Shown piece after piece: positions 19,425 to 23,316 of a stretch of 64,000 nt of DNA (position 1 is its first letter; every line of letters starts with the position of its first letter). The notes under the pieces were generated by a model. The model saw only the letters and a list, made by a program, of their open reading frames with translations. It did no database searches and was not told the origin of the DNA. Origin of the DNA: Candidatus Anaeroferrophillus wilburensis (GTDB taxonomy: Bacteria > Desulfobacterota > Anaeroferrophillalia > Anaeroferrophillales > Anaeroferrophillaceae); NCBI GenBank assembly GCA_016934315.1, contig JAFGSY010000028.1:1-64000 (forward strand). Direction: 5' to 3'. Position numbers and translations under genes: made by a program.

Positions 19425-19696
19425 AGTTTCATCCAGAAAAAAAGAGGGATGTCCTGACTCTTTCGCCTGCCGGCCAAAAGCGCCACAACAATCCCGAAGC
19501 TACCAAGATATCCTATTTCAGCCGCATAGGACTGTACGGTTAGGTTAGCGACAGCCCCGGCACAAGAGCGATCACTATACACATTTCAGCCACGAAGAAA
19601 AAGAAAAATTTCCAAGAGATCGTACACTCTCAGCGACGCAAAATCCGTGGAGCCCCCCCATGCACTCATCCGGCCATCTCAGCACAACGGATAACC

Positions 19697-20849
19697 TCAA
19701 CAGTCGACGGCTACCCGTTGACGGGCCTCTTGAACAATGGAAACATAGTCCTGCTGATCAAAACCCAGCCTGGTGAGGGTTTCATCAAGGGGGATGCTGT
19801 GCTCGTCAAACCCTTTCTCCCGGTAGACCACATCCGTCAGGATCTCATACTGCTCCCGGCGATGCGTTTGCAGCAGGTGCAGTAACTCCGCGTCAGTTCT
19901 CGATTCAACCTCAACACCGGCATTACGAAGGCAGGCTTTATAATAATCCCGGCGATCGACAAACTCGTCCAGGAAAACCGGTGCCATGGCCCTGAGAGGA
20001 ATGCGGTCATGCTCCCGGGTACCGACTCCCTGGCGCAGGTTAATGAGTTTATGCAACAGATAGCAGCGCTCGGACTCGGTCAACAGATCATCAAGCGTTT
20101 TTTTGGTTCCCAGGGTCGCATTAACGAGTTCAAGATAGCAGTCAACCGTGGGGAGATTTTTGGCCGGGTCATCGGTTGCCGCCGCATCCGGATGGCGGAC
20201 GTCAATCCATGGAAGCTTGCAAAGGCCGACAATGTTAAACCAGGTGCGAAACAGGGGAAACCACCTCAGGGCAGCGGCTTTCTGTTCAAAGGTCGGCATC
20301 TCGTTTTTGACCTGATCAAGGGCAATCAGCCAGGCCTCATCATGTTGGGGACCTTTCAAGGCAAAACCATAGCCACCCTGCTGAGCGAGCGATTCCTTGG
20401 TGATATACATGGAAAACTCCAGTCCTTTGGTCTCCATGGCAAAAAGGTCAAGATCATCAAGGACAACCCGTCGATTGCCGCCATTGCGGGCCGCCGCCCG
20501 TTCAGCTATCCAGCCCTTCATATGGCGAATTCCCCGTCCCACTTCCCTGGTGAAGCCATGGGTTCCAGCAGCCATCATGTGCAGCAGGCCAAACAGGACA
20601 TCCTTATCATTAAAAAGGACCGCCGGCAAAGGCAAGCACGTTTTCAGGGCTATCATATCTGGTTGCCGCATGCGTACCGTCATAGACCAGTTTCAAACAA
20701 TAGCCGCGGCCGCCGACAAACATCTCTTTTGTCTGAGGGGAAAACTCCTTGATGGAAATAGTTCCAGTGGTCAGATCTATGGCCAGCAAACGGTCCGTGT
20801 ACCCTTGTTTGACTGACACTTTTTCATACTCAGTTGATACAATCACCAT
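19697..20849 (-). pseudogene. Aldehyde:ferredoxin oxidoreductase (tungsten), internally deleted and frameshifted
   Basis: The N-terminal frame (20849-20610) encodes an AOR start: DRLLAIDLTTGTI, MFVGGRGYCLKLVYDG, SPENVLAFAGGPF, then a stop. A shifted frame continues to 19697 with C-terminal AOR sequence (VKGLEFSM-type KGLEFSMYI, then NIVGLCKLPW and a helical tail). Compared with Pyrococcus AOR (about 605 residues, cluster ligands Cys288, 291, 295 and 494), roughly 250-300 residues between the segments are missing, including the first three cluster cysteines. The final Cys survives in VGLC. The shift lies at a run of five T's near 20610. No active enzyme is expected. It follows the molybdopterin oxidoreductase gene. 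Confidence 0.87.
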
Positions 20850-21020
20850 GATCTACTCCTGCACATTTCGGTCTTGCAATCCGACACCATTATCCATAGT
20901 GAATTTTCTTAGCTTAGCCTGATACCACAGGCTCCCATTCATGTCCATGTTCGCCCGGCATCTGATCCAATCGGAGGCGGGCAAGTCAATAATTCTCTCA
21001 GTAGCGGCAACATATAAACA

Positions 21021-21046
21021 AACGCGACGGTTGACGCCGTCGCGTT
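21021..21046. other. Perfect 10-bp inverted repeat between Mo/W genes
   Basis: AACGCGACGG (21021-21030) pairs perfectly with CCGTCGCGTT (21037-21046) around a 6-base loop. No T run follows on either strand, so it is not a classic intrinsic terminator. Two shorter inverted repeats lie close by, including one across the stop codon of the molybdopterin oxidoreductase (AGCTGCC with GGCAGCT). They may form the 3' end or a processing site of that transcript before the AOR remnant. Confidence 0.5.
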
Positions 21047-21116
21047 GAGTACCAATATCCACGCAGCTGACTGCAAAAAACCTCGCAGTCGGCTTTTGGC
21101 AACCGGCAGACCCTCC

Positions 21117-23198
21117 CTAAAGCTGCCTGCGTATGCGGCAGCTGATTCCCTTAAGGTTCGGAGTACCGTATTCCTTACCGATTCTTTCGGTTGAAGTAAG
21201 CATATTGAGATTGGCCCTTTTCCAATCAAACTGGTTTTGGGCATCTCCTTCGGGAAACCACCAGCCATGGGCCGCATTAATGACCCGGGGATCGATGCTA
21301 TCAACCAAGTGGACATACTGGACGATGCTGCCTTTCCGAGTCTCAATGACCACCTGATCGCCCTCGCCGACCCCATGGAGCGCCGCCGTTTCGGGATGGA
21401 TTTCCACCTTTGGTTGGGGCCGCAGTTTCCGCAGTTTTTCAATCCACCGGTAAGATGAATGGAGAAAATAACGGCTTTTGCTGCTGGTCAGCAGCAGTGG
21501 ATAGTCGGCATCCACCTCCTCCGGCAGACCGTTGAATTCAGGCAGTGGTTTCAGTTTGAATTTTTCCGCGATGCTGAGCCGCAGTTCCACTTTGCCGGTG
21601 GGGGTGCGAAACCCTTTTTGTTCATACCGTTTGAAACGCTCGGGGCCCTTCAGATAACCTCGCTCGACAAACTGCCCATAGGTAAGTCCGGCCGGTCTGA
21701 CAACATCTTCGAGAAATTCTTCATGATCAGCATGCCATAATTCCGGCGGACTGATCAGCTTGCCCAATTCGTTCATGATCTTGATATCGGACCAGCACTC
21801 CGGCGGCGGCTCAATGATTTTCGGCCTGGCCAGGATAAAACCATGACCGATGCCGTAGTGGCCGATGTCGTTGATTTCATAGTGGCTGGCAACCGGCAAC
21901 ACCACGTCGGCCATGGACGCCGTCGGGGTCATGAAAAGGTCGGCAATGGCGATGAAATCAAGCTTCATCAGGGCTTCGTAGGTCTGCCGGCTGTCGGCAT
22001 AGGAAAGCATGCCGTTGGAACACATGGCATAGAACCCTTTGATGGGGTAGGGAACTTCATCAAGGATCGCTTTTTTGAAAAAGGTCGGGGGAATGGTCAT
22101 CAGGCGGGGAATCACCCGATGATAGGCACTGACCATCTCCTTTCGCTTTTCGGGAATGAGATCGGCACGGACAAACTCTCCCAGACTCATAATCGGCGGA
22201 TCATGGGCGGCCACATTGCCCCCCGCCACATCAAGGTTGCCGGTGATCGCCATCAGACAGATGAGCGCCCGCATCACATCAAAGGTGTTGACCGTATGCT
22301 CGAGGGGATTTCCCCATTGAATAACCGCCGGTTTTGTCGTCGCATACAACCTGGCGGTTGCCCGGATGTCGGCGGCCGGAATCCAGGTTATCTCAGCCAT
22401 CTTTTCCGGGGTATACTGCTGCACATGCTGGGCCAGATCCTCAAAACCATGGGTCCAGTTATCAACAAATTGCCGGTCATACAACGACTCTTCAATGATC
22501 ACCTGAAGCATGGCCAGGGCCAGGGCATGGTCGGTTCCGGGACGGATCCGCAGCCATTGCTTTGCCTGGCCAGCAAGGTCTATCCGGCGCGGGTCGATGA
22601 CAACCAGCTCCGTATCCCCTTTCAGCTGGTCCAGCAGCAGCTTGCAGATCTCCCCCTCCTCATTGGTGGAGGTAATGTTGCTGCCCCACAGCATCACCAG
22701 CTTACTGGGATGGTGGAAATCGGCCACCGGGTAAAAGCCGCAGGTATGAATGCCGGTGATCTCACGGGGGGCATGGCAGACATCCTGGGAGGCAATGACA
22801 TTGGGAGAACCGAACAGGTTGGCCAGCCGGATGAGGACAAAATGCTCCAGCCCCTTCGGCATGCCGACCCCAAAGGCAACCCCTTTCGGACCGTATTGCT
22901 CTTTGATGCGGTTGAACTGTTCGGCGGTGTACTGGAGCGCCTCCTCCCAGGAAATCCGCTCCCACTTGCCGGCGCCCCGCTCACCAACCCTTTTCAAAGG
23001 ATGGGTAAGACGGTGGGGATGGCTGAGACGGTCAGCGGACGCCAGCCCTTTGGGGCAGATATAGCCCCGGTTGAGATAGCCCTCGGGATCGCCCTTTACC
23101 TGCTCAATGCGGCCGTTTCTGACGCCGACCAGCAGGGAACAGCCGCCATGGTCCATGCGGGCACAGTGAGTTTTTAACCAACGAAGTTCTTCAGCCAT
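21117..23198 (-). CDS. Molybdopterin oxidoreductase (DMSO reductase family, Mo/W-bisPGD)
   Basis: 693 residues, uninterrupted. An N-terminal 4Fe-4S region (Cys12, Cys20, Cys48 in GYICPKG) precedes the molybdopterin domains (GSNITSTNEEGE, VVIDPRRIDLAGQAKQWL, ITGNLDVAGGNV, ADVVLPVASHYE) and the C-terminal cofactor-closing domain (HPETAALHGVGEGDQVVIET, then NAAHGWWFPEGD). Cys141 in SQDVCHAPREI is placed to be the metal ligand. The family pattern Cx3Cx3C at the cluster reads C12-ARM-D16-HGG-C20, so the second cysteine is Asp. No FeS subunit or membrane anchor is adjacent, so it may act alone with ferredoxin. The substrate is unknown. It precedes the AOR remnant. Confidence 0.9.
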   Translation of the reverse strand: MAEELRWLKTHCARMDHGGCSLLVGVRNGRIEQVKGDPEGYLNRGYICPKGLASADRLSHPHRLTHPLKRVGERGAGKWERISWEEALQYTAEQFNRIKEQYGPKGVAFGVGMPKGLEHFVLIRLANLFGSPNVIASQDVCHAPREITGIHTCGFYPVADFHHPSKLVMLWGSNITSTNEEGEICKLLLDQLKGDTELVVIDPRRIDLAGQAKQWLRIRPGTDHALALAMLQVIIEESLYDRQFVDNWTHGFEDLAQHVQQYTPEKMAEITWIPAADIRATARLYATTKPAVIQWGNPLEHTVNTFDVMRALICLMAITGNLDVAGGNVAAHDPPIMSLGEFVRADLIPEKRKEMVSAYHRVIPRLMTIPPTFFKKAILDEVPYPIKGFYAMCSNGMLSYADSRQTYEALMKLDFIAIADLFMTPTASMADVVLPVASHYEINDIGHYGIGHGFILARPKIIEPPPECWSDIKIMNELGKLISPPELWHADHEEFLEDVVRPAGLTYGQFVERGYLKGPERFKRYEQKGFRTPTGKVELRLSIAEKFKLKPLPEFNGLPEEVDADYPLLLTSSKSRYFLHSSYRWIEKLRKLRPQPKVEIHPETAALHGVGEGDQVVIETRKGSIVQYVHLVDSIDPRVINAAHGWWFPEGDAQNQFDWKRANLNMLTSTERIGKEYGTPNLKGISCRIRRQL

Positions 23199-23316
23199 GT
23201 AATTCCGCCTCCAGCTGCCGGCTTCATTGCTGAAAGAGAATTATCCGGAAACGCTGCACCCGGACGAACCCTTCCATCAACACCGGCAACACCGGCAGCT
23301 CCGGCTAACAGTTATC

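Follow-up and report, generated by a model that had tools for sequence, protein, structure and literature searches.

The window, a stretch of 64,000 nucleotides of Candidatus Anaeroferrophillus wilburensis DNA, carries between hflC and ribF a segment of 3.9 kb (19425-23316) that holds two features: the gene for a 693-residue Mo/W-bisPGD oxidoreductase, here called the Asp-type gene (21117..23198, minus strand), and a relic of an aldehyde:ferredoxin oxidoreductase gene. The relic is a pseudogene (19697-21000, minus strand) made up of a 328-residue C-terminal frame (19697..20683, minus strand), which matches PF01314 over positions 160-384 only and which we do not claim as a partner, and an N-terminal remnant in another frame. 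Of 21 genomes from the same family or order, 11 have a homologue of the pseudogene elsewhere at 74-76% identity, ten of the 11 in frames of 721-822 codons, three with one internal stop. The Asp-type gene was found in none of these 21 genomes, many of which are incomplete, the best rows being at most 33% identical. Eight relatives were fetched for the hflC-ribF region, and in all seven with enough sequence (L230 ends early) ribF follows within about 140 bases of hflC. The absence of the 3.9-kb segment from these seven relatives makes its gain by transfer probable; a search for mobile-element edges revealed no tRNA and no convincing flanking repeats.

The 693-residue product contains, over the Pfam cut-offs, all three of the domains that mark the DMSO reductase (MopB) superfamily, namely PF04879 (Molybdop_Fe4S4), PF00384 (Molybdopterin) and PF01568 (Molydop_binding). 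None of the best 25 of the 27 NCBIfam families matched lies above its cut-off, and the product consequently has no curated name. An earlier note on this DNA had read the N-terminal 4Fe-4S site as C12-ARM-D16-HGG-C20...C48, and this is borne out: residues 12-20 are C-A-R-M-D-H-G-G-C (23139-23165, minus strand), in which Cys12 (23163..23165) is the first cluster Cys, Ala13 (23160..23162) is a one-residue insertion, Asp16 (codon GAC, 23151..23153) occupies the column of the second cluster Cys, His17 (23148..23150) follows it and Cys20 (23139..23141) is the third cluster position. The fourth, Cys48 (23055..23057), is followed by Lys50 (23049..23051), all of these codons lying on the minus strand.

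In a first set of 59 relatives the motif is C-x-R-M-D-H-G-G-C in each of the five closest homologues (46-55% identity) and C-x2-C-x3-C in the next eight that were read (39-43% identity). The main count comes from a scan of the phylum (395 genomes) with the protein at E <= 1e-150, run without the motif and limited to the two best-scoring candidates of each genome; together with two extra hits and 14 rows of the first set this gave 118 rows, with no duplicates dropped. The clade of the Asp-type gene accounts for 64 of the 118 rows, with at least 46% identity, leaving 54 other rows. Asp16 is conserved in all 64 clade rows, as are Cys12, Cys20, Cys48, Lys50 and His17, and the inserted residue 13 is A, S or G in each. 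The usual four-Cys N-terminal motif of MopB proteins is thus absent throughout the clade, with three Cys and an Asp in its place. The other rows lack the insertion (54/54, one of them, L190, cut off at a contig edge) and present a Cys at the Asp16 column in all 53 that are readable; Lys50 is kept in all 54. In the rows read no other residue takes the place of Asp16, not even Glu or Asn, whereas positions 13, 14 and 15 vary.

The two types are separated without intermediates, with a gap in score between 700 bits (Asp) and 630 bits (Cys). Below 699 bits the four-Cys pattern is found in 65 of 70 rows, the five that do not fit being L190, L027 and L028 (N terminus outside the frame), L021 (wider spacing) and L017 (no motif). 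Asp-type rows occur in at least 63 of the 395 genomes. A further 80 loci came from search patterns that contained the Asp motif and are therefore kept out of the main count; with them the distinct clade rows number 126, and Cx3DHGGC is present in all 125 that are readable (L089 starts past the motif). Rows of at least 62% identity occur in 12 of 63 genomes from the class to which the Syntrophomonas genome G399 belongs, and of the ten with loci nine have Cx3DHGGC and one (L250) Cx3DQGGC. The full motif of L250 is CARMDQGGC, with Asp16 retained and His17 lost.

An AlphaFold2 model built with 59 clade sequences has a mean pLDDT of 92.9 and a pTM of 0.92, although its block of lowest confidence (residues 11-20, mean 76) is the motif itself. 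Its best match among solved folds is acetylene hydratase (AH; 2E7Z) with a Z of 44.9, an rmsd of 2.0 over 680 residues and 30% identity, followed by polysulfide reductase (Z 38.6); by profile, too, AH ranks first among solved structures (E 1.7e-165, with a profile of six Asp-type and eight four-Cys rows). In the alignment with 2E7Z, Cys9, Cys16 and Cys46 of AH correspond to Cys12, Cys20 and Cys48 of the window protein, and Lys48, Trp293 and Cys141 are retained as Lys50, Trp295 and Cys141. The changed positions are Cys12 (to Asp16), Asp13 (to His17), Ile14 (to Gly18), Ile113 (to Pro114), Ile142 (to His142), Trp179 (to Glu180) and Trp472 (to Gly449); Ile142 presumably lies near the active site of AH, and we take Ile14, Ile113, Trp293 and Lys48 to be functional positions of that enzyme as well. 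The accessible part of the AH literature describes a monomer in which Cys141 is the W ligand and four Cys hold the cluster, in which Asp13 is hydrogen-bonded to the metal-bound water and is essential, and in which Trp179 and Trp472 are named near the active site (PMC12096430).

Cys141 (22776..22778, minus strand), found in all 64 clade rows and all 54 others, thus stands by alignment with AH Cys141 as the probable Mo/W ligand, as the earlier note had proposed. Other positions are specific to the clade. His142 (22773..22775), Glu146 (22761..22763), Glu180 (22659..22661) and Gly449 (21852..21854), all encoded on the minus strand, are each present in 64/64 clade rows, whereas the other rows have Tyr, Phe or Trp at 142 (54/54), Ile or Val at 146 (52/54), Pro at 180 (43/54) and Trp at 449 (44/54). 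Glu181 and Asp444 are equally invariant, and all of the clade-invariant residues Asp16, His142, Glu146, Glu180, Glu181, Asp444 and Gly449, though not His17, are rare (<15%) in the other rows. The presence of His, His, Glu and Gly at the columns of AH Asp13, Ile142, Trp179 and Trp472 in every clade row indicates that this is not an AH. The catalytic Asp13 of AH is matched by His17 in the best alignment, while Asp16 may take the place of Asp13 in space. Judged from sequence and predicted model, the product is best read as an enzyme of an AH-like branch of the DMSO reductase (MopB) superfamily. A survey of MopB proteins describes, in its accessible part, an AH family as well as other novel branches whose best hits are AH-like and whose metal ligand is apparently a Cys (PMC10100899); by this description the clade plausibly lies among them.

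The surroundings of the gene were compared over 81 stretches (80 loci and the window), 77 of which retain the gene in the count, a longer antisense frame having displaced it in the simple gene caller in the remaining four. Among the 45 largest neighbour families listed no operon partner emerged, none being its immediate neighbour in more than 4 of the 77 loci, and the commonest of them occurs in 12 loci, mostly five or more genes away. The 64 immediate same-strand neighbours within 300 bases likewise share no Pfam family in more than six cases (GAF_2), among the 25 of 77 families listed. The statement of the earlier note that there are no partner subunits therefore holds, in the sense that no conserved neighbour appears among the families listed for the 77 loci. 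Minor recurring neighbours are polysaccharide deacetylase, cupin, TetR and pyruvate-oxidoreductase-like genes, and at two loci (L073 and L099) a Cys-rich gene of Fe-S type adjoins. A search with PADLOC for a defence role gave no match. The 11 residues that precede Cys12 are too few for a Tat signal, and the simplest reading is that of a soluble, single-subunit enzyme, probably cytoplasmic.

A tree of 111 rows was computed with the first 30 residues, and hence the motif, left out; it was made by a quick method with SH-aLRT values and no bootstrap, and acetylene hydratase sits on a long branch in it. A branch with an SH-aLRT of 99 has the 44 Asp-type rows on one side; one change is needed, and on this motif-free tree the Asp rows have a single origin. 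The simplest history is the insertion of one residue together with a Cys-to-Asp change at the second ligand column, since the R and the HGGC letters are for the most part present in the nearest relatives too. Reference of the site to a Cx3Cx3C form was accordingly correct as to spacing but not as to ancestry, the nearest relatives having C-x2-C-x3-C. The suggestion that the protein represents a distinct subfamily is supported by the invariant Asp at the second cluster-Cys column, by Cys141 as aligned and by the lack of conserved partner genes, and the subfamily is one without a curated name. At least 24 of the 63 Asp-type genomes also contain a four-Cys relative (L029, L011, L012, L030-L032 and others, mostly CRxCHGGC), so that the two types can be compared as natural pairs.

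From these alignments, and by analogy with other clusters, Asp16 is predicted to be the fourth ligand of the N-terminal cluster, a reading to which we assign a probability of about 0.55. The evidence for ligation is that Asp is found in 64/64 clade rows against Cys in 53/53 readable others while residues 13-15 vary, and that in L250, where His17 became Gln, Asp16 stayed. The cluster site is probably still used, given that none of the 64 rows has lost Lys50 or any of the remaining cluster Cys. Against ligation stand the low model confidence of the motif and the position of Asp16, which suits a second-shell role as well. Asp-ligated clusters that can be converted to the [3Fe-4S] form are known from ferredoxins. 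As far as the accessible parts of the sources go, it is established for DPOR that one Asp and three Cys ligate a [4Fe-4S] cluster (PMC12518044), the corresponding cluster of DMSO reductase subfamily II, whose metal ligand is Asp, is bound by three Cys and one His (PMC8840923), and Desulfovibrio africanus ferredoxin III has a reactive [3Fe-4S] and a labile [4Fe-4S] cluster, with no Asp ligand named in that portion of the text (PMC13111528). Two other candidate ligands were rejected. Column 15 is M in 53, F in 7, L in 2, W in 1 and Q in 1 of the 64 clade rows, which disfavours Met15, and the C-terminal Cys687 (21138-21140, minus strand), considered as a compensating ligand, is equally kept in four-Cys rows (53/54 other rows against 63/64 Asp-type rows).

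The main alternative, less likely but to be weighed seriously, makes Asp16 not a ligand but a second-shell acid/base and proton relay near the metal-bound water that replaces AH Asp13, the cluster then being held by three Cys either as [3Fe-4S] or as [4Fe-4S] with water or hydroxide on the fourth iron. AH Asp13 and Asp16 both lie at +4 from the first cluster Cys, the insertion giving the equal spacing, the change of Asp13 to Ala abolishes the activity of AH according to the accessible text (PMC12096430), and residue 15, directly before Asp16, varies. What counts against it is the HGGC that follows Asp16, which is common to most of the nearest C-x2-C-x3-C relatives, so that in the parsimonious alignment Asp16 falls in the Cys column and His17 in that of Asp13. 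Outright loss of the cluster, with the remaining Cys and the Asp serving other roles, appears quite unlikely; some MopB families are described as lacking the cluster in the part of the survey available (PMC10100899), and the distant hit L017 has no such motif, but the retention of Cys12, Cys20, Cys48 and Lys50 in all 64 clade rows is hard to reconcile with it. It is very unlikely that the subfamily is a formate dehydrogenase (FDH) variant using Cys141-His142 in the manner of the Sec/Cys-His pair, which has a functional role in FDH: although the Cys-His pair is present in 64/64 rows and FDH entries are among the next-best solved matches, AH ranks above FDH in both profile and fold, NCBIfam TIGR01591 scores 293.5 bits against a cut-off of 666.25, and the column of E. 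coli FdhF Arg333, which we take to be the conserved functional Arg of FDH, holds A in 29, R in 18, P in 16 and T in 1 of the 64 rows. A random change, frameshift, or sequencing or assembly error confined to this genome, with Asp only here and Cys in the homologues, is refuted by the conservation counts across the whole clade and many assemblies, nothing having been found in its favour, and its probability is practically nil.

With Asp16 as the fourth ligand, the N-terminal site would hold a [4Fe-4S] cluster with a 3 Cys : 1 Asp ligand set, perhaps labile and convertible to [3Fe-4S], which may set the potential of, and a proton-coupled step in, electron transfer between the cluster and the Cys141-ligated metal. 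The polar pocket of His17, His142 and Glu180 would handle a substrate other than acetylene, and electrons would be exchanged with a soluble carrier encoded elsewhere. The protein is a Mo/W-bisPGD enzyme, probably redox-active, with a rebuilt polar pocket. The fuller proposal, that a conserved [4Fe-4S] cluster with 3 Cys : 1 Asp ligation, perhaps the first known from the superfamily, sits beside Mo/W-bisPGD in a single-subunit enzyme of syntrophic and sulfate-reducing bacteria with a rebuilt polar active site, where its ionisable and exchangeable Asp would provide a proton-coupled or switchable relay, seems to us to stand at even odds. No description of an Asp at this cluster, or of this subfamily, was found in the literature searched, which is weak evidence of absence as few subscription papers were within reach, and the accessible portion of a paper on benzene activation (PMC13101534) contains nothing on this family. 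Should Asp16 be a ligand, the replacement of Cys by Asp next to a pterin metal centre became fixed a single time and has been kept across many Thermodesulfobacteriota and Syntrophomonas-type Bacillota. This would present a natural experiment on the way in which potential and proton coupling depend on a single ligand, with a four-Cys relative in the same genome in at least 24 of 63 cases. An uncharacterised enzyme subfamily is delimited as well, one found in organisms that carry anaerobic carbon flow.

Compared with AH of Pelobacter (Syntrophotalea) acetylenicus, the window protein shares the whole-length fold, the Cys metal ligand column, the Lys48/Lys50 position and three of the four cluster Cys columns, and the monomeric state described for AH is a further likeness to a gene without a conserved partner; the differences are the Asp with its one-residue insertion at the Cys12 column and the four replaced active site positions. 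The C-x2-C-x3-C relatives from the same phylum (about 38-44% identical) have the same length, Cys141, Lys50 and Cys687, and in most cases the HGGC block, but differ in having four Cys and no insertion, an aromatic residue at 142, mostly Ile or Val at 146 and mostly Pro180 and Trp449. The gut catechol dehydroxylases (Dadh, Hcdh, Cadh, Dodh), reported in the accessible part of the source to have acetylene hydratase as their nearest kin (PMC7028382), have ferredoxin and membrane-anchor genes or else a small 4Fe-4S gene as neighbours, and some of them carry a Tat signal. By this description, which is the sole basis of the comparison, the window gene differs from them in having no conserved neighbour and its first cluster Cys at residue 12; its own neighbours are hflC and the aldehyde oxidoreductase relic, and neither an adjacent 4Fe-4S partner gene nor a Tat signal is present. 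Subfamily II of the DMSO reductases (NarG, EbdA; FS0) offers a non-Cys ligand at the same cluster, as predicted here, but there it is a His combined with an Asp metal ligand, in contrast to the Asp at the second position and the probable Cys metal ligand of the window protein. The subfamily II His sits at the first cluster position. In its ligand set the predicted site resembles the cluster of DPOR BchNB, likewise three Cys and an Asp, although that protein is nitrogenase-like and draws its ligands from two subunits.
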